A stretch of 64,000 nucleotides of DNA, from positions 1,197,012 through 1,261,011 of the forward strand of contig NZ_BCNO01000001.1 of NCBI RefSeq assembly GCF_001514535.1, in the 5' to 3' direction. A program made the position numbers and the translations under genes. This document shows positions 495 through 9,288 of this stretch, in pieces. This DNA comes from Thermodesulfovibrio aggregans (GTDB taxonomy: Bacteria; Nitrospirota; Thermodesulfovibrionia; Thermodesulfovibrionales; Thermodesulfovibrionaceae). The notes under the pieces are model-generated. The model saw nothing but the letters and a program-made list of their open reading frames with translations, ran no database searches and was not told the origin of the DNA. Positions within the stretch are counted from its first letter, which is position 1. Each line of letters starts with the position of its first letter.

Positions 495-530
495 TAGAAA
501 TTAGGGGAGCACCTGCTCCCCTAATTTCTA
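495..530. terminator. Bidirectional hairpin between convergent genes
   Basis: A perfect 16-bp inverted repeat (495-510 and 515-530) with a 4-nt ACCT loop. The core stem is GC-rich (GGGGAGC/GCTCCCC) and the outer stem AT-rich, giving A- and T-rich flanks in both directions. It lies between the convergent TPR and rhodanese genes and includes the rhodanese TAG stop, so it can terminate both. Confidence 0.75.
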
Positions 531-998
531 TTCCTTTACATACTCTGTTGCCAATCTTCCAACTTCTTTAGCAAATTCAGCAATACCACCTTTAAACTGG
601 AATGCATTGTTAAAACCTATTGCTCTAAGAGCGATTGTGGCTGCTGCAGCTCTATCTCCTGTGTGACATAGTACAGCAATCTTTTTATCCCTTGGAAGTT
701 TTTTTAAATTTTCAGGTTTAAAAAGTTCATGCATCGGTATTAAAAGTGAGCCTTTCCAGACCGGAGCAATTAGCTTTTGCTCAGCAGGTGTTCTTATGTC
801 AAGAATAACAAATTCTTCTTTCTTTTTAATCATCTCAAGTATGTCCTTTGTGGTTATCTGGCATGGTCTCATTGTAAGAACTTCAGGGGTCATCTGTGAA
901 AACATGGTATCAAATTTTTTTGCCATTTCAGTATCATAAGCAAAAGCAGATGTAGTAAGAATTATTGTTGCTAAAAAAATCAAAGCAATTTTTCTCAT
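528..998 (-). CDS. Exported single-domain rhodanese-like protein
   Basis: A 156-residue protein with a Sec signal peptide (residues 1-20, ending TSAFA), so it acts outside the cytoplasm. The rest is one rhodanese domain: the ILDIRTPAE strand, the SLLIPMHEL stretch, and the active-site loop AVLCHTGDRAAAA with catalytic Cys111 in a CxxGxR pattern. Rhodaneses carry sulfane sulfur as a cysteine persulfide; the donor and acceptor are not visible here. It is the second gene of a two-gene leftward operon, 17 nt after another exported rhodanese. The 36-nt hairpin at its stop codon probably ends the transcript. Confidence 0.88.
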   Translation of the reverse strand: MRKIALIFLATIILTTSAFAYDTEMAKKFDTMFSQMTPEVLTMRPCQITTKDILEMIKKKEEFVILDIRTPAEQKLIAPVWKGSLLIPMHELFKPENLKKLPRDKKIAVLCHTGDRAAAATIALRAIGFNNAFQFKGGIAEFAKEVGRLATEYVKE

Positions 999-1015
999 TT
1001 TTAAACCCTCCTAAC

Positions 1016-1483
1016 TTACTTTTTTATACCTTTACCCATTCCCTGAGGTTCTCCTTTTTCTACGGTTTCTCCAGCCTTTATCCAGACATCAAATCCACCT
1101 TTGAGATTGTATACATTCTTGTAACCAAGTTTCTTTAAATCACAGGTAACGATTGCACCTCTTCCGCCTGTTTTGCAATAAACTAAATAAACTTTATCTT
1201 TATCCGGTATCCATTCATCAGCTTTAAAGTCCATGAGTCCTCTTGGGGTCCATAGAGCTCCAGGAATGTGACCAGCAATGTATTCAGTATACTCCCTTAC
1301 ATCTAAAATGATAGCACCTTTTGCAATTAAATCCTTTGCACCTTTTACATCAACCTCCTGAATTCCACATTGTTTTGCCTCTTTAACACGCTCATCGCTC
1401 AGTGGAGTTGCTGCCCATGTTAAGTTGAAAAGCATAATAAGAATCGCTCCGATGATAAGAAAACTTCTTGTTAAGCTTCTCAC
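1016..1483 (-). CDS. Exported single-domain rhodanese-like protein
   Basis: A 155-residue protein with an N-terminal signal sequence (SFLIIGAILIMLFNLTWA) and one rhodanese domain: IILDVREYTEYIAGHIPGA, then the active-site loop LVYCKTGGRGA with Cys103 in CxxGxR, then LKKLGYKNVYNLKGGFDVW. A GTG start at 1483 is chosen because an AGGAGGT ribosome site lies 5 nt before it. It heads a leftward pair with the next rhodanese, divergent from the larger rhodanese at 1666. Periplasmic sulfur-transfer or sulfide/polysulfide handling is inferred from the neighbours. Confidence 0.88.
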   Translation of the reverse strand: MRSLTRSFLIIGAILIMLFNLTWAATPLSDERVKEAKQCGIQEVDVKGAKDLIAKGAIILDVREYTEYIAGHIPGALWTPRGLMDFKADEWIPDKDKVYLVYCKTGGRGAIVTCDLKKLGYKNVYNLKGGFDVWIKAGETVEKGEPQGMGKGIKK

Positions 1484-1504
1484 ATTACACCTCCTCGTGT
1501 TATT

Positions 1505-1523
1505 AATCTGCCCACGGCAGATT
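1505..1523. promoter_or_regulatory. Perfect 8-bp inverted repeat in the rhodanese leader
   Basis: AATCTGCC-CAC-GGCAGATT, a perfect 19-nt dyad lying just after the predicted transcription start of the leftward rhodanese operon and before its ribosome site. It could be an operator or a leader hairpin. No regulator can be named. Confidence 0.4.
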
Positions 1524-1537
1524 TTATACCTTATAGG

Positions 1538-1567
1538 AGTATATAATTCTGATTTAAGTTAAGTCAA
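1538..1567 (-). promoter_or_regulatory. Promoter of the leftward rhodanese operon
   Basis: Read on the minus strand: TTGACT (1562-1567), an 18-nt spacer, then TATACT (1538-1543). It is a sigma-70-like promoter giving a leader of about 45 nt before the GTG at 1483. Confidence 0.6.
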
Positions 1568-1611
1568 GTTATTAAAAAATAAAAAATTTACCATCACTGG
1601 GTATATAAATA

Positions 1612-1640
1612 TTGACAAAATCTATAAATAAAGATAAAAT
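1612..1640 (+). promoter_or_regulatory. Promoter of the selenoprotein rhodanese gene
   Basis: TTGACA (1612-1617), a 17-nt spacer, then TAAAAT (1635-1640): a near-consensus sigma-70 promoter. The ribosome site AGGAGGT at 1654-1660 follows, 5 nt before the ATG at 1666. The TTG inside the -35 box is therefore not the start codon. Confidence 0.75.
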
Positions 1641-1665
1641 TATAGAAAAAAATAGGAGGTATTTT

Positions 1666-3018
1666 ATGGGTAAAAAACGAAATGGTTTGTTTTTAGGTGT
1701 TTTTATTTTATTTTTAGCCTTAGCTCTGGTAGCCTCACAGGGTATATCTCAGCAAAAACCCATAATTGCTAAAGGATGCTCGTTACCTGGATGCCATACG
1801 GCAAAAGCAGGGGAACTATGGGGTAATCTAAAAACTGTCTCTGGAAAAGCTGAGATGATTCAGATTGATACAGGTGCTTTGTGGACAGTCAAGTTTGATG
1901 AAAACACGAAAGTAAAGAACTGGAATCAACCTCTTAACAAACTTCCAAAGGAAAAAGAGATAGCTATCACCTATGTAGAGAAAAATGGCGAGCTCTATGC
2001 AACCTTAATTAATGTTAAACCACCGGTTGCCGTTGATCCATCAAAAGTTGTAAAAGTTGCTGAGATGAAAAGAATTTACGATGAAAAGAGTGCTTTGATT
2101 ATTGACTGTAGACCTGCTGGCAGATATAATGAAGGTCATATTCCAGGTTCAATAAATATCTGGTTTGCAGAATTTGATAAACACATTGACAAACTTCCCA
2201 AAGACAAGAATGCTCCTATAGTTTACTACTGTCAGGGTCCTACTTGAGCTCTCACTCCTTCATCTGCTCGGAGAGCAGAAGCTTTAGGTTATACAAATGT
2301 AAAGCAGTTTGTAGATGGAATGCCTGAGTGGAAAAAGCAGGGTTATCCAGTTGCATCAACAGTTAAATATTTACAGGAACTCATAAGCAAAGACATTCCT
2401 CATGTTTTAGTTGATGTAAGACCAAAACAAGAGGCTGAAAAGGAACACATAAAAGGTGCTGTAAATATACCTCTTGATGAGCTTGCAAAGGCTAAGAAAC
2501 TTTTTCCAAAACAGAAAAATGCACCCATAATAATCTACTGCACCAAGGACAATCTCTCTCAAAAAGCCTTTGATATTGTAAGAAAATGGGGTTATATAAA
2601 TACTTCATATCTTGAAGGTGGAATTGATGCATGGAAAAAGGCAGGAGGTGAAGTACTTTCAGGACAGCTAAAAAAGGAAATTGTATATGTACCTAAACCA
2701 AAACCTGGAACAATAGGAATTGAAGAATTTAAGAAAATTACAGGTAAGATTCCACCAAATGTAATAATCCTTGATGTTAGAGATCCTGAAGAGACCCAGA
2801 TGGGAATGATTAAAGGTGCAAAAAACATTCCTGTCAATGAACTCAAGGACAGACTTAATGAACTTCCAAAAGACAAAGAAATTATCGTTCACTGTGCTAC
2901 AGGAATGAGAGCAGAGATGGCTTATAACATCCTTAAAGAAGCAGGATACAATGTAAAATTTCTTGATGCATCAATTCAGATTAAAAAAGGTGGTAAATAT
3001 AAAATTACTGAAAACTAA
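1666..3018 (+). CDS. Exported triple-rhodanese selenoprotein with N-terminal CX4CH motif (in-frame TGA at 2245-2247 read as Sec194)
   Basis: Seen: one frame runs from ATG 1666 to the TAA at 3018, interrupted only by TGA 2245-2247. It encodes 450 residues: a signal peptide (about 1-30), a haem-like CSLPGCH motif (38-44), a small beta-rich domain, then three rhodanese domains (about 130-215, 230-325, 345-440). The TGA falls inside the first active-site loop, YYCQGPT-U-ALTPSSARRAEALGY, and homology to rhodaneses continues unbroken after it. Known: many rhodaneses with this longer loop have a second Cys at this place (C-x-G-x-x-C). Domain 2 has YCTKDN (Cys292) and domain 3 HCATGMR (Cys410). A SECIS-like hairpin follows the TGA. 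Inference: periplasmic sulfur transfer using a Cys189/Sec194 pair. The alternative is two genes split by a nonsense mutation, less likely given the SECIS and the missing second start. It has its own promoter, ribosome site and terminator. Confidence 0.85.
2258..2281 (+). promoter_or_regulatory. Candidate bacterial SECIS element
   Basis: Upper stem CTGCTC (2264-2269) pairs perfectly with GAGCAG (2273-2278) around a GGA loop. A lower stem CTT/AAG (2258-2260 with 2279-2281) is separated by a 5' bulge that contains a U. The first loop G is 22 nt after the TGA. Guanines at the start of a small apical loop, a bulged U below the upper stem and a spacing of roughly 16-37 nt are features of SelB-binding hairpins such as that of E. 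coli fdhF. Confidence 0.7.
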
Positions 3019-3022
3019 TTAA

Positions 3023-3041
3023 AGGGGGCTTTATGCCCCCT
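3023..3041 (+). terminator. Terminator after the rhodanese selenoprotein
   Basis: A 7-bp stem AGGGGGC/GCCCCCT with a TTTAT loop, followed by the pyrimidine run CTCTCTGTT. It lies 4 nt after the stop codon and isolates this gene from the cytochrome gene, which has its own -10 box. Confidence 0.7.
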
Positions 3042-3049
3042 CTCTCTGT

Positions 3050-3055
3050 TATAAT
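3050..3055 (+). promoter_or_regulatory. Extended -10 box for the multihaem cytochrome (leaderless)
   Basis: TGT-TATAAT, only 5 nt before the ATG at 3061 and with no Shine-Dalgarno. Transcription would start at or next to the start codon. Confidence 0.55.
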
Positions 3056-3060
3056 TCTAA

Positions 3061-4950
3061 ATGCCTTTCAAATTAGGTAAAATAAGTGACCTTGCATCCC
3101 CTCTTACAGTAACTTTATTTTTTCTTCAATTCATACTAATTACGGGTTTTCTTGGATATCAATATTATATGGATTCATCTGAAAGTTGTATTAACTGTCA
3201 TGGTTCAGAGGAGAAGATGAAAGAATTCGGTTATCCTCAGTTTTACGTTACCCTTGAGGATGTAAGAAAAGGCACAGGACATAAAACAGTTCAATGCAGG
3301 GACTGTCATCTTGGAAATGGAAGAGCATGGGATAAGGAGAGGGCACATAAGGGAATGTTAAAGGCTATTTTTGTAAATGAGAGTGCAGAGCCTGTTGACA
3401 GAAAGAAAATTTACACTAAAGAGGAAACAGAGTTAAATAAAATCATACCGGCTGGCGAAAATTCACTATTTGAACTTCTACCAAAGAAAAGAGAAAATGG
3501 AGAGATTTCCCTTCATCCTCAGGTGCGAAATATTCTCTGGCATGACAGAAATCCAAATGACTTTAATTTTGACCCGAAGATAGCAGAGAAGACCTGTGGC
3601 AAAAGAGGATGTCACACTGAGGAGCTAAAACAGTTTAAGAACACCATAATGGGAGCAAATTTTCGTCAAAGAACAATGCGAAGCTGGCTTGAACCTTATG
3701 GACCTCATAACTGCGGACCATCTTTTGCAGACCTACCACCGGCAGAGGTTTTAAAGACTTCAGGATTTGATTTTACAAATACGGAAAAAATAAGAAAAGA
3801 GATAAATTTGCCATTTACGGATGAGCAGGCAATAGCCAAGCAGAGACTTTGCAATGTATGTCATGCAGGATGTCTTGACTGTCACTATGCACCAAATAAA
3901 GATAAAGGTTCACACTCTTTCATAAAAGTGCCTGATTCCTACAGTTGCATGGGAAGGGGAAGGGGTAATTCAGTATGTCATACAGGTTCAGGCCATTCAA
4001 GAAGAGGTGAGACTTATATTGGTAAATTTTATTCCATACCTCAGGGGAGAAAGCCGGATGTTCATTTTCAAAAAGGAATTCACTGCGTAGAATGTCATCC
4101 CACAGGTAAAAGAGGAATGGGGGATATGCAAAGAAAGGCAACCTGTGGAGACTGCCACATTGAAATAGAGAAAGCCCACGCAAAGTCAATTCATAAGAAT
4201 CTTACCTGTACAGCCTGTCATGTAACAGAAGCTGGTGGATATCAGATAACTGTATGGGGGAAAGGATTTATTGGAGAAAAACCAAATCCATTTAAAAAAT
4301 ACTCTCTCTATTATGGGATTCAAAAACCTCTCATTTTAATGAAAGACCAAAGGGGTATCTGGTTTCCTGTAAAAATATTTCCTCACATTGTGGGAAATAT
4401 AGAGAAAGATGTGCCAGCAACAGGAATTAAGTTCAGATGGGAGAAGGGACAGACAAGGGATATGTATGCCATAATAGGAACTTTTGATGGACTGCCATCT
4501 GCCAATAAACATTTAGCATGGTTACAGATTGAAGAGGTATCCCATCCATTTGGAAAAGCAAGAGATTGTAAAAGTTGTCACCGCAGTAGGCAGATTTCCG
4601 TATCTGAGTGGCAGTATGAAGATATTCAGGGTGCAGAGCCGTTCAGAGGAGGATACCGAATAGTTGCCGATGAAAGAGGTTTGAGACTTGAAGACTTCTG
4701 GCACAGTAATATAAAAGTTCTGCCCGGATTTGAGATATCTGACTTTGCTTCATGGATTTATCTTAAGGATAAGTGGTTTATAAAAGGAGATTTTTCAATA
4801 AAAGTAGATGGCAAAAAATATCTTTACTATGAAAAGCTCTACAGAGATAATCTTGATAAAATAAAAAGGCTTGAAAGTTTGAGAAACAACTCTCAGGAAA
4901 TGAAAAAAATAAAGGCAATTCTTATGCATAATCCGGATGCGAAAATTTAA
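3061..4950 (+). CDS. Membrane-anchored multihaem cytochrome c, about ten haem sites
   Basis: A 629-residue protein with one N-terminal transmembrane anchor (about 14-34), NapC/NirT-like in layout, and a large periplasmic part. Eight CXXCH haem motifs are visible (Cys43, 79, 264, 271, 342, 362, 383 and about 514). A CX4CH (CGKRGCH, 179-185) and a possible CX9CH (Cys296/Cys306-His307) bring the total to as many as ten. The last 110 residues carry no haem motif. It probably passes electrons between the quinone pool and a periplasmic reaction. Its position after the rhodanese gene suggests sulfur-compound reduction or oxidation, but the substrate cannot be read from the sequence. No Shine-Dalgarno; a -10 box lies 5 nt upstream, so the mRNA is probably leaderless. 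Confidence 0.85.
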   Translation: MPFKLGKISDLASPLTVTLFFLQFILITGFLGYQYYMDSSESCINCHGSEEKMKEFGYPQFYVTLEDVRKGTGHKTVQCRDCHLGNGRAWDKERAHKGMLKAIFVNESAEPVDRKKIYTKEETELNKIIPAGENSLFELLPKKRENGEISLHPQVRNILWHDRNPNDFNFDPKIAEKTCGKRGCHTEELKQFKNTIMGANFRQRTMRSWLEPYGPHNCGPSFADLPPAEVLKTSGFDFTNTEKIRKEINLPFTDEQAIAKQRLCNVCHAGCLDCHYAPNKDKGSHSFIKVPDSYSCMGRGRGNSVCHTGSGHSRRGETYIGKFYSIPQGRKPDVHFQKGIHCVECHPTGKRGMGDMQRKATCGDCHIEIEKAHAKSIHKNLTCTACHVTEAGGYQITVWGKGFIGEKPNPFKKYSLYYGIQKPLILMKDQRGIWFPVKIFPHIVGNIEKDVPATGIKFRWEKGQTRDMYAIIGTFDGLPSANKHLAWLQIEEVSHPFGKARDCKSCHRSRQISVSEWQYEDIQGAEPFRGGYRIVADERGLRLEDFWHSNIKVLPGFEISDFASWIYLKDKWFIKGDFSIKVDGKKYLYYEKLYRDNLDKIKRLESLRNNSQEMKKIKAILMHNPDAKI

Positions 4951-5217: not shown

Positions 5218-6165
5218 TCATTCCTCAACGCATATTTCTCTTCTTGTTACAGCAAAAATTGTTTTAATGAGAACAAAGCTAATTACTGCTGTTGTGATTA
5301 CCACAAAAATATAGCTTAGATATTCGTATATCGGAAGATTTGTCATTCTATATCTTAATGCAATTGCTATTGTGACAGCATCAAGTGGGAAAGTATATGC
5401 CCACCAGGATATGTAGAATTTCAGTTTTATAAATTTCTTTATTAAGGCGAATAAGACAATACACAGGAAAAGGGCAAAATAAAAAAGAATATTTCCAAAT
5501 GCATCTATACCGGTGTTAATTTTTGTATATGATATAAAACCAACAGCCGGTGGAGCAATTAGAATAAAAAATGTAGGGTATAGTCTTTCAGGTAAAGGAT
5601 TATGAAAGATAAATCGGTAAAATACTATTGTAAAGAGACAAATCCAGAATATTATGCCAATGCTGAAGAAAAACCAGGACAGTTCTTTAGAATAATTAAT
5701 ACCCTGAATAGGGATAATTATTGCTCCAACAACAGGAATAAACCAGGCTGGATTTATCATTTCCACTTTAAATTCTTTATTTATCCAGAAGGTAAGAGTT
5801 CTTACAAGAAATATAAAATGTAGAATACTTCCAAAAAGCCAAAATAAAAAGGCAAAATAAACATTTATCTCTCCGTAGGCAACAGCGAGAAGTAGAAGAG
5901 AAATGGAAATTGTAGGAAAGAAGCTTGATTTTACTGGATGATTGAACTCTTTTTTTACTTCAGAGGAATATTTAAATAATTTTGTTATATATACAATTAA
6001 AAAAAGACCAAAGAGGGATGTGGAAAAATAAGTAAGAAAAATACCAGAATTTCTTAAAAATTCATCTATAAAAGACAATCTCATATAGGCAATTGCAAGA
6101 CCTGTAAGTCCCATTATGACAGCAAAAAATGAAATGGGAAAATTTTTAATTCTGCTGCCTTCCAT
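5218..6165 (-). CDS. TehA/SLAC1-family (TDT) anion channel or transporter
   Basis: A 315-residue integral membrane protein with about ten hydrophobic segments. The strings NPAWFIPVVGAIIIP and ILIAPPAVGF match the conserved repeats of the TDT family, which includes bacterial TehA and plant SLAC1 channels. These proteins move small anions or dicarboxylic acids; some relatives export sulfite. In a sulfur organism beside rhodanese and cytochrome genes, sulfite or another small anion is a reasonable but unproven substrate. ATG 6165 is preceded by AGGAGG, and a consensus promoter lies at 6201-6229 on the minus strand. It is a single-gene unit divergent from cstA. Confidence 0.8.
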   Translation of the reverse strand: MEGSRIKNFPISFFAVIMGLTGLAIAYMRLSFIDEFLRNSGIFLTYFSTSLFGLFLIVYITKLFKYSSEVKKEFNHPVKSSFFPTISISLLLLAVAYGEINVYFAFLFWLFGSILHFIFLVRTLTFWINKEFKVEMINPAWFIPVVGAIIIPIQGINYSKELSWFFFSIGIIFWICLFTIVFYRFIFHNPLPERLYPTFFILIAPPAVGFISYTKINTGIDAFGNILFYFALFLCIVLFALIKKFIKLKFYISWWAYTFPLDAVTIAIALRYRMTNLPIYEYLSYIFVVITTAVISFVLIKTIFAVTRREICVEE

Positions 6166-6363: not shown

Positions 6364-8100
6364 ATGAACACGCTCCTTGTAGTAATAATCTCAACATTTA
6401 TTTTCTCTATTGCATACAGGTTTTATGCCAGATATATCTCCCGAGTTTTCAATGAAGATGACAGAAATCCAACTCCTGCTAAAACAATAAATGATGGAGT
6501 TGACTATGTGCCTTCAAAAACACTGGTTGTATTTTCCCATCACTTTTCCTCAATTGCAGGCGCAGGTCCCATAGTAGGTCCTGTTGTTGCAATGTTATAT
6601 GGATTTTATCCCACATGGTTGTGGATTTTATTTGGTGCAATACTCATAGGAGCAGTTCATGACAGTACTTCCATATTTGTTAGCTTAAGGGAAAAAGGTA
6701 AATCCATTGTTGAGATAGCAAAGAAAACAATGGGCAGATGGGGATTTACTCTGTTTATTCTCTTTGTATTTTTCATGCTTTTGCTTGTCTGTGCTGCTTT
6801 TCTTGATCTTACCTGTGTTGCTTTGACATCTGTGGTAAAACTTAAACTGCTCAATCTTTCTGATTCACAGACACTTTTCAAAACCATAAGAGATGAAAAA
6901 ACAGGAGAGGTTTTAGCACAAATCGGAGGAATTGCCTCAACTTCAGTGATAATAATTACAGCCTTTGCACCGGTTATGGGATACCTTCTATACAGAAGGA
7001 ATATGAGAGTATTTTATGCTTTTGTTTTTTCTTTAATTGTAATTGCCTTATCAGTTTTTATTGGCTTTGTCTTACCTGTAAGATTTTCCCGTGAAACATG
7101 GATGGTGCTTGTTTCCATATACTGTTTTATTGCCTCTGCAATTCCTGTGTGGATAGTGCTTCAGCCAAGAGATTTTATCAATTCTTTTTTTCTTTATAGT
7201 GGTATAGTTGCTTTAATAGTTTCAGCAATTATTGGAGGATTTAAGGGAATAGAGGTTACAGCACCATCATTGAATATCGCTGAAGGCACTGCAAAACTCG
7301 GTCCTATCTGGCCTATTCTCTTCATAACTGTTGCCTGTGGGGCAATAAGCGGATTTCATACTCTTGTAGCAACAGGCACAACTGTAAAACAGCTTTCAAA
7401 AGAGTCTGACGCAAGAAGAGTAGGGTATGGAGCAATGCTTCTTGAGGGACTTCTCTCTGTTGGTGTAATTGTTGCTATTGGAGCAGGACTTACCTATACG
7501 GCATACAAAGAAATAGTTTTCCCCGCAGGAGGTAAATCCAATCCTGTTTTGGCTTTTTCTTTGAGTTCAGGTTTGTTTATGGAAAAGGTTATAGGGATTC
7601 CTTCATATATTGGAACTATTTTCGGAATACTCATGATAGAAGGATTTGTTATAACCACTCTTGACACAGCAGTAAGGCTTGGAAGGCTTATTTTACAGGA
7701 ATTCTGGAGGAATATTTTTAAAAAACCACCAAGATTTGTATTTTCCAGATTTTTTAACTCTACTGTGATGATTGTATCCATGTTTTTGCTTGCTTATAAA
7801 AATGGATTTGCTGTAGTCTGGCCTGTTTTTGGTTCAGCAAATCAACTCATGGCAGCACTTGCATTGATAGCCATATCACTGTGGCTTACAATGATGCATA
7901 AGAAGAGACTTTTTACAGTTCTTCCTGCGATTTTCATGCTTGCAACAACAATTTATTCTTTAGGGTTTCTTCTGTTTAAGAAATTTCTTCCCTCAGGAAA
8001 TATTCCTTTAATCGGGATTACAATCATTCTTTTTGTCCTTGCATGGTTTGTATTTCTTATATCATTAAGGAAATTCATTGAATACAGAAGAGGGATATAA
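6364..8100 (+). CDS. cstA: Carbon starvation protein A (CstA-family peptide/pyruvate transporter)
   Basis: A 578-residue polytopic membrane protein. The N-terminal part contains the family signatures ARYISRVFNEDD, NDGVDYVPSKT, FSHHFSSIAGAGPIVGPVVA and GAVHDSTSIFVSLREKGKS, typical of CstA. E. coli CstA and its paralogue act in peptide and pyruvate uptake. This form is shorter than the roughly 700-residue E. coli protein, like many anaerobe homologues. It is followed 3 nt later by an L-2-hydroxyglutarate oxidase gene, so the two are probably cotranscribed. Inverted repeats upstream suggest regulation. Confidence 0.9.
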   Translation: MNTLLVVIISTFIFSIAYRFYARYISRVFNEDDRNPTPAKTINDGVDYVPSKTLVVFSHHFSSIAGAGPIVGPVVAMLYGFYPTWLWILFGAILIGAVHDSTSIFVSLREKGKSIVEIAKKTMGRWGFTLFILFVFFMLLLVCAAFLDLTCVALTSVVKLKLLNLSDSQTLFKTIRDEKTGEVLAQIGGIASTSVIIITAFAPVMGYLLYRRNMRVFYAFVFSLIVIALSVFIGFVLPVRFSRETWMVLVSIYCFIASAIPVWIVLQPRDFINSFFLYSGIVALIVSAIIGGFKGIEVTAPSLNIAEGTAKLGPIWPILFITVACGAISGFHTLVATGTTVKQLSKESDARRVGYGAMLLEGLLSVGVIVAIGAGLTYTAYKEIVFPAGGKSNPVLAFSLSSGLFMEKVIGIPSYIGTIFGILMIEGFVITTLDTAVRLGRLILQEFWRNIFKKPPRFVFSRFFNSTVMIVSMFLLAYKNGFAVVWPVFGSANQLMAALALIAISLWLTMMHKKRLFTVLPAIFMLATTIYSLGFLLFKKFLPSGNIPLIGITIILFVLAWFVFLISLRKFIEYRRGI

Positions 8101-8103
8101 AAT

Positions 8104-9288
8104 ATGATTTTAATCTGCGGTGCAGGAATTACAGGACTTTCAATTGCAAGAGAACTTCTAAATTATGGATTTTCTGACATAACAATTATAGAAAAAGAGC
8201 AGAATCTCGGAAAACACGCCTCAGGAAGAAACAGCGGTGTGCTTCATGCAGGAATTTACTACACGCCTGATAGCTTGAAAGCGAAGTTCTGCCTTAAAGG
8301 CAACAGACTCATGAAGCAATACTGTAGACAAAAGGGTTTAACTCTTATTGAATCTGGAAAAGTAATTGTTACAAAAAAAGAAAGCGAACTCACCACACTT
8401 AATGAACTTTACAGAAGAGCAAAGCTAAATGGAGCTAACGTTGAACTCATAGATGAAAAAGCTTTAAAAAAAATTGAACCCTACGCAAAAACCTTTAAAG
8501 AAGCTCTATTTTCTCCTGAGACAGCAGTAATAAATCCTCAAGAAATTTTAAATACCCTTGAAACAGAGCTTTCAGGCAAAGGAGTGAAGATAATAAAGGG
8601 AGTTACACTACATGATGTAAAGGGAAGCAGAACTGCTATAACCGATAGAGGGGATATGGAATTTGACCATTTTATCAATGCAGCAGGTGCTCATGCAGAT
8701 AGAATCGCTCATATGTTTGGATTGGCAAAGCAATACAGAATCGTTCCATTTAAGGGGCTTTATAAGAAGTTAAATAAAGGCAAATCATTTCTTGTAAGAG
8801 GAAACATCTATCCAGTGCCTGATATAAAAAATCCTTTTCTGGGAGTTCATTTTACTAAAATTCATGATGGCACTGTTTATGTAGGACCTACGGCAACACC
8901 TGCTTTTGGAAGGGAAAACTACAAAGTATTTGATGATCTCGGCATTGAAACCCTGAAAATTCTCTGGAGAGATTTATCTCTTTTTTTGAGCAATGAAAAA
9001 TTCAGAAACACAGCTTTCACAGAGATGAGAAAATATTTTAAGAAAAAGTTTTATGAAGATGTTAAGGATATGATTGAAGGAGTCAGTATTGATGACCTTT
9101 TGCCATCCAATAAAGTAGGAATAAGACCGCAGCTTATTGATTTGAATAAAAAAGAGCTTGTAATGGACTTTTTAGTAATCAAGGATTCAAATACAATTCA
9201 TATTCTCAATGCCATATCACCAGCCTTTACTTCTGCCTTTTCATTTGCAGAGTTTATTGTAAAAGAATATTTTATGGTAACCGGTTAA
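8104..9288 (+). CDS. lhgO: L-2-hydroxyglutarate oxidase / FAD-dependent oxidoreductase
   Basis: 394 residues, the usual length for LhgO. An FAD-binding Rossmann motif sits at the start (LICGAGITGLSIA), with IIEKE as the acidic end of strand 2. ASGRNSGVLHAGIYYTPDSLKAKFC is the LhgO/L2HGDH signature, and the C-terminal region has the expected GVSIDDLLPSNKVGIRPQ. Known members oxidise L-2-hydroxyglutarate to 2-oxoglutarate and feed electrons to the quinone pool. It lies 3 nt after cstA; in E. coli lhgO is likewise in a carbon-starvation operon (csiD-lhgO-gab), so a shared starvation role is plausible. Confidence 0.85.
   Translation: MILICGAGITGLSIARELLNYGFSDITIIEKEQNLGKHASGRNSGVLHAGIYYTPDSLKAKFCLKGNRLMKQYCRQKGLTLIESGKVIVTKKESELTTLNELYRRAKLNGANVELIDEKALKKIEPYAKTFKEALFSPETAVINPQEILNTLETELSGKGVKIIKGVTLHDVKGSRTAITDRGDMEFDHFINAAGAHADRIAHMFGLAKQYRIVPFKGLYKKLNKGKSFLVRGNIYPVPDIKNPFLGVHFTKIHDGTVYVGPTATPAFGRENYKVFDDLGIETLKILWRDLSLFLSNEKFRNTAFTEMRKYFKKKFYEDVKDMIEGVSIDDLLPSNKVGIRPQLIDLNKKELVMDFLVIKDSNTIHILNAISPAFTSAFSFAEFIVKEYFMVTG

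Follow-up and report, generated by a model that had tools for sequence, protein, structure and literature searches.

A candidate haem c–selenocysteine–rhodanese fusion and a decahaem cytochrome at one end of a possible sulfane-sulfur respiration locus of Thermodesulfovibrio

A stretch of 64,000 nucleotides (G000:C1:1197012-1261011; hereafter, the window) was analyzed from the 2.0 Mb genome of Thermodesulfovibrio aggregans, a hot-spring-type sulfate reducer. Near its start lies an island of three rhodanese genes (RhoA, RhoB and RhoSec) followed by the gene of a multihaem cytochrome (Cyt). Comparison with relatives suggests that these genes form part of a more extensive module, found repeatedly, that serves the respiration of sulfur compounds. 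Our leading, though tentative, reading of the gene content is that a Thermodesulfovibrio locus for the periplasmic respiration of sulfane sulfur (thiosulfate, polysulfide) has one of its ends in the window. RhoSec itself is a strong selenoprotein candidate, with selenocysteine (Sec) predicted at position 194, and a candidate haem protein.

Predicted selenocysteine and haem motif in RhoSec

RhoSec (1666..3018, + strand) encodes 450 amino acids when UGA is read as Sec, with a hydrophobic N-terminus, a CX4CH motif, a small beta domain and three rhodanese domains. The in-frame UGA (codon 194; 2245..2247, +) lies in the loop of domain 1, YYCQGPT-U-ALTP, five residues past the loop Cys189. In an alignment of 81 RhoSec rows (80 loci plus the window), the residue-194 column held UGA in 49 rows, Cys in 31 and Ser in one (L180), and a quick tree required at least 10 Sec/Cys changes, 8 of them forced by well-supported branches.

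A hairpin resembling a selenocysteine insertion sequence (SECIS) begins 15 nt past the UGA (2263..2279, +; 7-bp stem, loop GGA). Across the 49 UGA rows, which align there without gaps, 88.5% of cells were paired, compared with 32.6–52.2% in slid controls and with 64.0% for the same region in the Cys rows other than L169 and L185 (29 of 31). Further, five of the seven pairs changed on both sides, with 34 such cells vs. 11.4 in shuffles, and a G stood within the first two loop places in 47/49 UGA vs. 17/31 Cys rows (p 1e-5). Since the region is also under coding constraint, the covariation counts as support rather than proof. Folded as a single sequence, the window's hairpin was not unusual (z -0.92), and the difference in best-hairpin energy between Sec and Cys rows was not significant (p 0.06). 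One Cys form (L116:10592-10642) still carries a SECIS-like hairpin, likely a relic of a recent Sec-to-Cys change.

SelA, SelB and tRNA-Sec are present in the window's genome. In a wider set, SelB was over its cut-off in 18 of 19 Sec genomes vs. 20 of 29 Cys genomes (Fisher one-sided p 0.03). The two Cys genomes of the genus, G006 and G009, gave no SelB match; a clean tracking of SelB by the Sec/Cys state within the genus was nevertheless judged weak, given that G009 has SelA and tRNA-Sec and that G006 is 72% complete.

With regard to its architecture, RhoSec matched PF00581 in three stretches (E 1.4e-59), and its predicted model (predicted local distance difference test, pLDDT, 83.8) comprises a six-stranded beta domain at approximately residues 50-117 and three rhodanese folds. 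Rhodaneses alone were found among the matches listed in the fold comparison, with low template modelling scores over the multi-domain chain. An N-terminal haem motif occurs in 74/81 rows, as CXXCH in 67 and CX4CH in seven; the remaining seven, one of them truncated, have none. The motif of the window, CSLPGCH (1777..1797, +), is read as a haem site because it aligns with the CXXCH of most relatives, making RhoSec a candidate haem c–Sec–rhodanese fusion. The loop residue Cys189 is kept in 80/81 rows and Cys410 of domain 3 in 81/81. Kinship of the small beta domain with ExtJ was considered and rejected (hhalign probability 0.3%).

Two RhoSec-like groups were seen alongside. Four Geobacteraceae loci (L205, L208, L213 and L214) hold a second clade, about 30% identical and lacking the haem motif, which is possibly ExtH; in the last three it adjoins another kind of molybdopterin oxidoreductase. 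At L071, genome G026 encodes a second RhoSec paralogue, 35% identical and with an in-frame UGA.

Cyt and the rhodanese complement

Cyt (3061..4950, +) encodes 629 amino acids with one N-terminal transmembrane helix and ten haem motifs: eight CXXCH, one CX4CH (CGKRGCH) and one C-x9-CH (C296/C306-H307), all of them invariant in 28/28 aligned sequences. The helix followed by haem motifs resembles the NrfH/NapC quinol dehydrogenases; Cyt differs from them in having ten haems and in staying far under both cut-offs (NrfH TIGR03153, 28.1 of 134.2 bits; NapC PF03264, 17.3 of 24.1). It was also below cut-off for ExtN (26.5 of 200 bits) and ExtM (16.5 of 800) and failed the ExtO model. The haem-free AlphaFold model of Cyt reached a pLDDT of 61.7, and Foldseek returned no match for it at E <= 0.001. 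In two relatives the gene is interrupted, by a frameshift that splits it in G008 and by an N gap in G003; an apparent RhoSec–Cyt fusion in the latter (open frame of 1039 aa) was rejected, as it spans a scaffold gap of 98 N.

The other two rhodanese genes, RhoA (528..998, −; 156 aa, loop LCHTGDR, PF00581 at 41.5 bits against a cut-off of 22.2) and RhoB (1016..1483, −; 155 aa, loop YCKTGGR, 74.4 bits), encode single-domain proteins of export type. A whole-genome PF00581 search returned exactly five matches, all within the 528-3018 stretch and each with its loop Cys. From their hydrophobic N-termini, RhoA, RhoB and RhoSec are apparently exported. Among the 16 genomes of the genus sample, which includes the window's own (G000), RhoA adjoins RhoSec in 11 (loci L001-L022), counting G014, where a RhoSec remnant is left, and RhoB was seen in G000, G001, G002, G006, G010, G013 and G015.

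The original prediction had described three rhodanese genes with five domains, one of them with Sec, and a cytochrome with up to ten haems that shares a CX4CH motif with the selenoprotein. This description held: PF00581 gives 1 + 1 + 3 stretches, the ten motifs and both CX4CH variants are in place, and Sec is predicted from the in-frame UGA, the Cys of homologues and the covarying hairpin.

The larger locus in the genus Thermodesulfovibrio

The RhoSec–Cyt order was kept within the genus. Beyond Cyt, the locus continues with genes for the C- and N-terminal parts of a cytochrome b and a Rieske protein on the opposite strand, and then with a Tat-type PhsA/PsrA-like subunit, iron–sulfur and NrfD subunits and an ExtJ-type protein. 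RhoSec, Cyt, cytochrome b/Rieske and PhsABC-type genes were contiguous in seven genomes (G002, G003, G004, G005, G006, G009 and G012). In the window's genome, PhsA lies outside the window, 10.7 kb before RhoSec (C1:1185747-1187936), and a DsbA-like fragment and a di-haem CCP/MauG protein adjoin the cytochrome b genes (L101:4691-6167). Elsewhere, PhsA was contiguous without RhoSec (G001), on another contig (G008) or more than 50 kb off (G010, G013).

Cyt, cytochrome b and PhsA are distributed identically across the genus sample, with 12 of its 16 genomes having all three. Three of the four genomes without the set are only 63–68% complete; the fourth, G014 (99%), is a firm loss. When only genomes at least 90% complete were counted, the set was present in 10 and absent in one (p 0.09, not significant alone). 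In G014 (L022/L072), which has neither PhsA nor cytochrome b, the RhoA and TehA genes are intact and enclose degraded copies of RhoSec and Cyt.

The best solved relative of PhsA was PDB 2vpw (E 3e-222), a Thermus structure whose chain is labelled thiosulfate reductase; PhsA keeps the Cys of the Mo-ligand column. The best NCBIfam model for this subunit was PhsA (557 bits, cut-off 694), and NrfD was well over its Pfam cut-off (128.6 of 25.8 bits). An order-wide search for PhsA (61 genomes in the order sample) at E <= 1e-150 found it in one of 45 genomes outside the genus (G025, 58% identity).

PMC5165239 describes thiosulfate reduction by strain N1 and proposes that a PhsABC homologue of that strain (THER_0551-0553) accounts for it; judging by gene content, those genes would be the set of L107. 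In G012 only, genes for YedE, TusA, two DsrE proteins and DsrH lie between Cyt and cytochrome b (L103:7899-10378). Sulfane-sulfur chemistry is favoured because of the PhsA/PsrA-type match to 2vpw, the proposal for N1 and this YedE-TusA-DsrE-DsrE-DsrH set.

The same sulfur-relay genes recall the YTD set proposed for disproportionation (PMC12998232). The locus could accordingly be used oxidatively or for disproportionation, oxidizing periplasmic sulfide or persulfide or splitting thiosulfate, with the quinone pool or outward cytochromes receiving the electrons. We consider such a use unlikely, given that a full PF04143 (YedE) match stands in the locus only in G012, with weaker PF04143 matches elsewhere in the window's genome, and that no relay genes of this kind occur in the locus of the window's genome or in the other genus loci examined. 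Nor was disproportionating growth of the genus found in the open-licence PMC literature, as far as its accessible text goes.

RhoSec loci outside the genus

The 80 RhoSec loci, six of them from the genus, were inspected with flanks of up to 10 kb, many being shorter on short contigs, and a PhsA-type gene was called at 400 bits or more. Such a gene was found in the flank of 17/80, with 46–92% identity to the better query (L145 being itself a query): in five loci of the genus (L108-L112) and in 12 of the 74 outside it. Eight of the latter are from Geobacteraceae, related or unclassified bacteria (L135, L142, L144, L145, L152, L155, L172 and L180), the others being L143, L158, L167 (labelled Rubrivivax) and L184 (Ectothiorhodospiraceae), although labels of metagenome-assembled genomes may be wrong. 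The loci with these last two labels lend something to the oxidative use introduced above, and PsrA/PhsA enzymes can work in both directions. Other flank genes among the 80 loci were Rieske (14), cytochrome b (13), ExtM-type (10), Cyt (7) and ExtN-type (5).

A further possibility is that the cluster is loose: Cyt and the bc-type genes would serve general periplasmic electron transfer, for instance to Fe(III), and the rhodaneses would form an independent sulfide/sulfane detoxification set, adjacent by chance. Consistent with this, Cyt matched at E <= 0.001 in 41/61 genomes of the order, mostly with unrelated neighbours, and RhoSec occurs away from Cyt in 10 genomes of other families. Outside the genus, the Cyt neighbours c7 and c27 read as a RodZ-type helix-turn-helix protein and RNase R, without a functional hint, and Cyt was within 10 kb of RhoSec in one Desulfobulbaceae locus (L185). 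Set against chance adjacency are the repeated linkage of RhoSec to PhsA, bc-type and multihaem genes in several lineages and the joint loss in G014, and we rate it as the least probable of the explanations weighed here.

The main rival sees the locus as a relative of the Geobacter extHIJKLMNOPQS cluster that reduces chalcogen oxyanions (selenite, tellurite) or supplies selenide, RhoSec handling Se(0) or selenide. The two share a rhodanese, multihaem cytochromes, Rieske and cytochrome b. The ExtJ model was over its cut-off beside NrfD in the window's genome, outside the window (61.5 of 52.5 bits), and in L109 (70.1 bits), and the cytochrome b of the locus was closest to ExtP (245.4 bits, cut-off 290, E 4.8e-73). 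RhoSec-Cys adjoins ExtM/ExtN homologues in several deltaproteobacterial loci, as in L152, where both are over cut-off (ExtM, 1021.8 of 800 bits; ExtN, 628.2 of 200), and the gene row of L142 reads porin-RhoSec-octahaem-PhsA-NrfD-ExtM-ExtN-Rieske. A bc-type complex would also suit selenite, with its higher potential. The likeness to ext in ExtJ, ExtP and ExtM/N neighbours leaves some weight to a selenite/tellurite reading (PMC5877670, PMC6148476), and loss of extI impairs selenite and tellurite reduction (PMC5877670).

Yet we think this chalcogen reading improbable for the window. Its Cyt fails ExtM, ExtN and ExtO; the DUF3373 porin, which stands beside RhoSec in Geobacter-type loci and may correspond to ExtI, was over cut-off in 0/16 genomes of the genus. 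Further, PhsABC-type genes are present, with a molybdoenzyme of PhsA/PsrA type for which the YnfE/YnfF selenate models score far lower, and the G012 locus contains sulfur-relay genes. As a separate observation, the models ExtN (NF040967) and 'ExtO FeS subunit' (NF040968) both match one decahaem protein of L152 (19312-20655) at more than 600 bits; NF040968 looks mislabelled.

Other features of the window

RhoB and RhoSec diverge from a 182-bp intergenic region (1484..1665) read from the sequence, in which promoter-like matches were no better than in shuffles. Within the 42-bp gap between RhoSec and Cyt, a GC-rich inverted repeat occupies 3023-3041; no T-run accompanies it on the + strand, and co-transcription of the two genes is therefore not certain. 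A TehA/SLAC1-family anion channel gene (5218..6165, −; SLAC1 188.6 bits, cut-off 27.9) follows Cyt as had been predicted, but it is convergent on the opposite strand and a looser neighbour. It adjoins Cyt, or what is left of that gene, in G000, G004, G005, G009 and G014 and is at most a loose member of the island. Farther on, at 6364-9288, lie genes for a CstA-type carrier and then an L-2-hydroxyglutarate oxidase family protein (338 bits, cut-off 299). An Rfam scan of the window matched tRNAs only.

Discussion

Returning to the respiration of sulfane sulfur, the chemistry at Cys189/Sec194, an electron path between haem, Cyt and quinone, and a hand-over to PhsA can be put together as follows. 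Thiosulfate or polysulfide would donate a sulfur atom to the Sec194 selenol. Cys189 of the same loop would then resolve the perselenide, so that sulfide is set free and a selenenyl-sulfide remains, to be reduced by electrons from Cyt that arrive via the haem of RhoSec itself. A selenyl-sulfide carrier role of this kind is chemically reasonable. Alternatively, RhoSec might pass sulfur via domain 3 (Cys410) and RhoA/RhoB to the PhsA-type enzyme; a model for such a transfer is Sud, which hands sulfur to polysulfide reductase in Wolinella. The quinone pool would be linked through Cyt and the Rieske/cytochrome b pair. Some species retain the rest of the module without RhoSec, which argues that RhoSec is a dispensable accessory and not part of the core; it would tune the module.

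Several observations weigh against this scheme. RhoSec is missing from three near-complete genomes of the genus, G001, G010 and G013 (99% complete), which retain Cyt, cytochrome b and PhsA; none of 20 Cyt regions outside the genus (L081-L100) contains RhoSec; and 63/80 RhoSec loci, many on short contigs, have no PhsA-type gene of at least 400 bits in their flank. Domain 2 has its loop Cys in just 9/81 rows, and the PhsA, ExtP, NrfH and ExtN models all remain under their NCBIfam cut-offs. Thiosulfate and polysulfide have potentials (about -0.4 V and -0.26 V, respectively) much lower than that of menaquinol, which means that their reduction through a bc-type complex would not be downhill; this complex may act on another couple or in the oxidative direction. 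In addition, elemental sulfur was not used as an acceptor by strain N1 (PMC5165239).

The interpretation given in the original prediction stood in part. Its refuting condition, a neighbourhood that relatives do not share, did not come true within the genus, where the RhoSec–Cyt order is conserved; in the regions fetched around Cyt outside the genus, RhoSec was not its neighbour. The proposed sulfane-sulfur chemistry gains from the PhsA/PsrA-type enzyme, the Rieske/cytochrome b genes and the G012 relay genes, and the interpretation loses from the three genomes without RhoSec and from the orientation of TehA.

Among described systems, PhsABC/PsrABC with Sud of Wolinella resembles the locus in a molybdenum subunit that matches 2vpw over its full length, in the iron–sulfur and NrfD subunits and in the export-type rhodaneses nearby. 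The RhoSec profile reaches PDB 1qxn (E 4.5e-6), the Sud rhodanese. In contrast, the rhodanese here is a predicted haem c–Sec protein of three domains, and the locus has Rieske/cytochrome b and a decahaem cytochrome in addition.

Predicted rhodanese selenoproteins have been described (PMC13188914, PMC9312934). Those of PMC13188914 (forms 1-5, TsoB and NF041203) have Sec in the rhodanese loop like RhoSec; form 1, UxxS, fits the U-x-[LM]-[ST] of RhoSec, and form 1 (WP_010941598) may belong to the RhoSec family by motif compatibility, while the UxxxxU spacing of TsoB equals the CxxxxU of RhoSec. The haem c motif and three domains of RhoSec are unmentioned in the accessible part of that source. RhoSec remained below cut-off for NF041203 (rhodanese-related (seleno)protein; 94.9 of 115 bits), having CxxxxU instead of CxU, and for TsoB (NF045694; 92.1 of 805), having Cys instead of U at the first position. 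The domain scheme proposed for a different rhodanese fusion, found in Pelobacter, runs from persulfide and disulfide formation to the release of sulfide (PMC3543383). In the accessible text of the open-licence PMC literature, neither a haem c–Sec–rhodanese nor a connection between such a protein, PhsABC and a decahaem cytochrome was found described.

A bolder proposal, which we consider unlikely to hold in full, is that RhoSec is the first member of a family of haem-wired selenoenzymes occurring in Nitrospirota, Desulfobacterota and some Proteobacteria, in which the c-haem feeds single electrons to a Cys-x4-Sec site that cleaves sulfane sulfur reductively. The rhodanese would then be a terminal respiratory reductase (or, reversed, an oxidase); a quinol-linked decahaem cytochrome would supply it, and its partner would be a molybdoenzyme of PhsABC type.

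Rhodanese selenoproteins have been listed in reviews without a function. The architecture of haem c motif, Cys-x4-Sec rhodanese and two further domains defines a RhoSec family that spans several phyla, has exchanged Sec and Cys repeatedly, and has PhsA-type molybdoenzymes, bc-type genes and multihaem cytochromes as recurrent neighbours. With this family, electron transfer involving periplasmic sulfane sulfur in sulfate reducers and Geobacter-type bacteria can be assigned to a definite site that lends itself to testing; it also hints at a possible role in sulfur metabolism for the ext 'selenite/tellurite' cluster.

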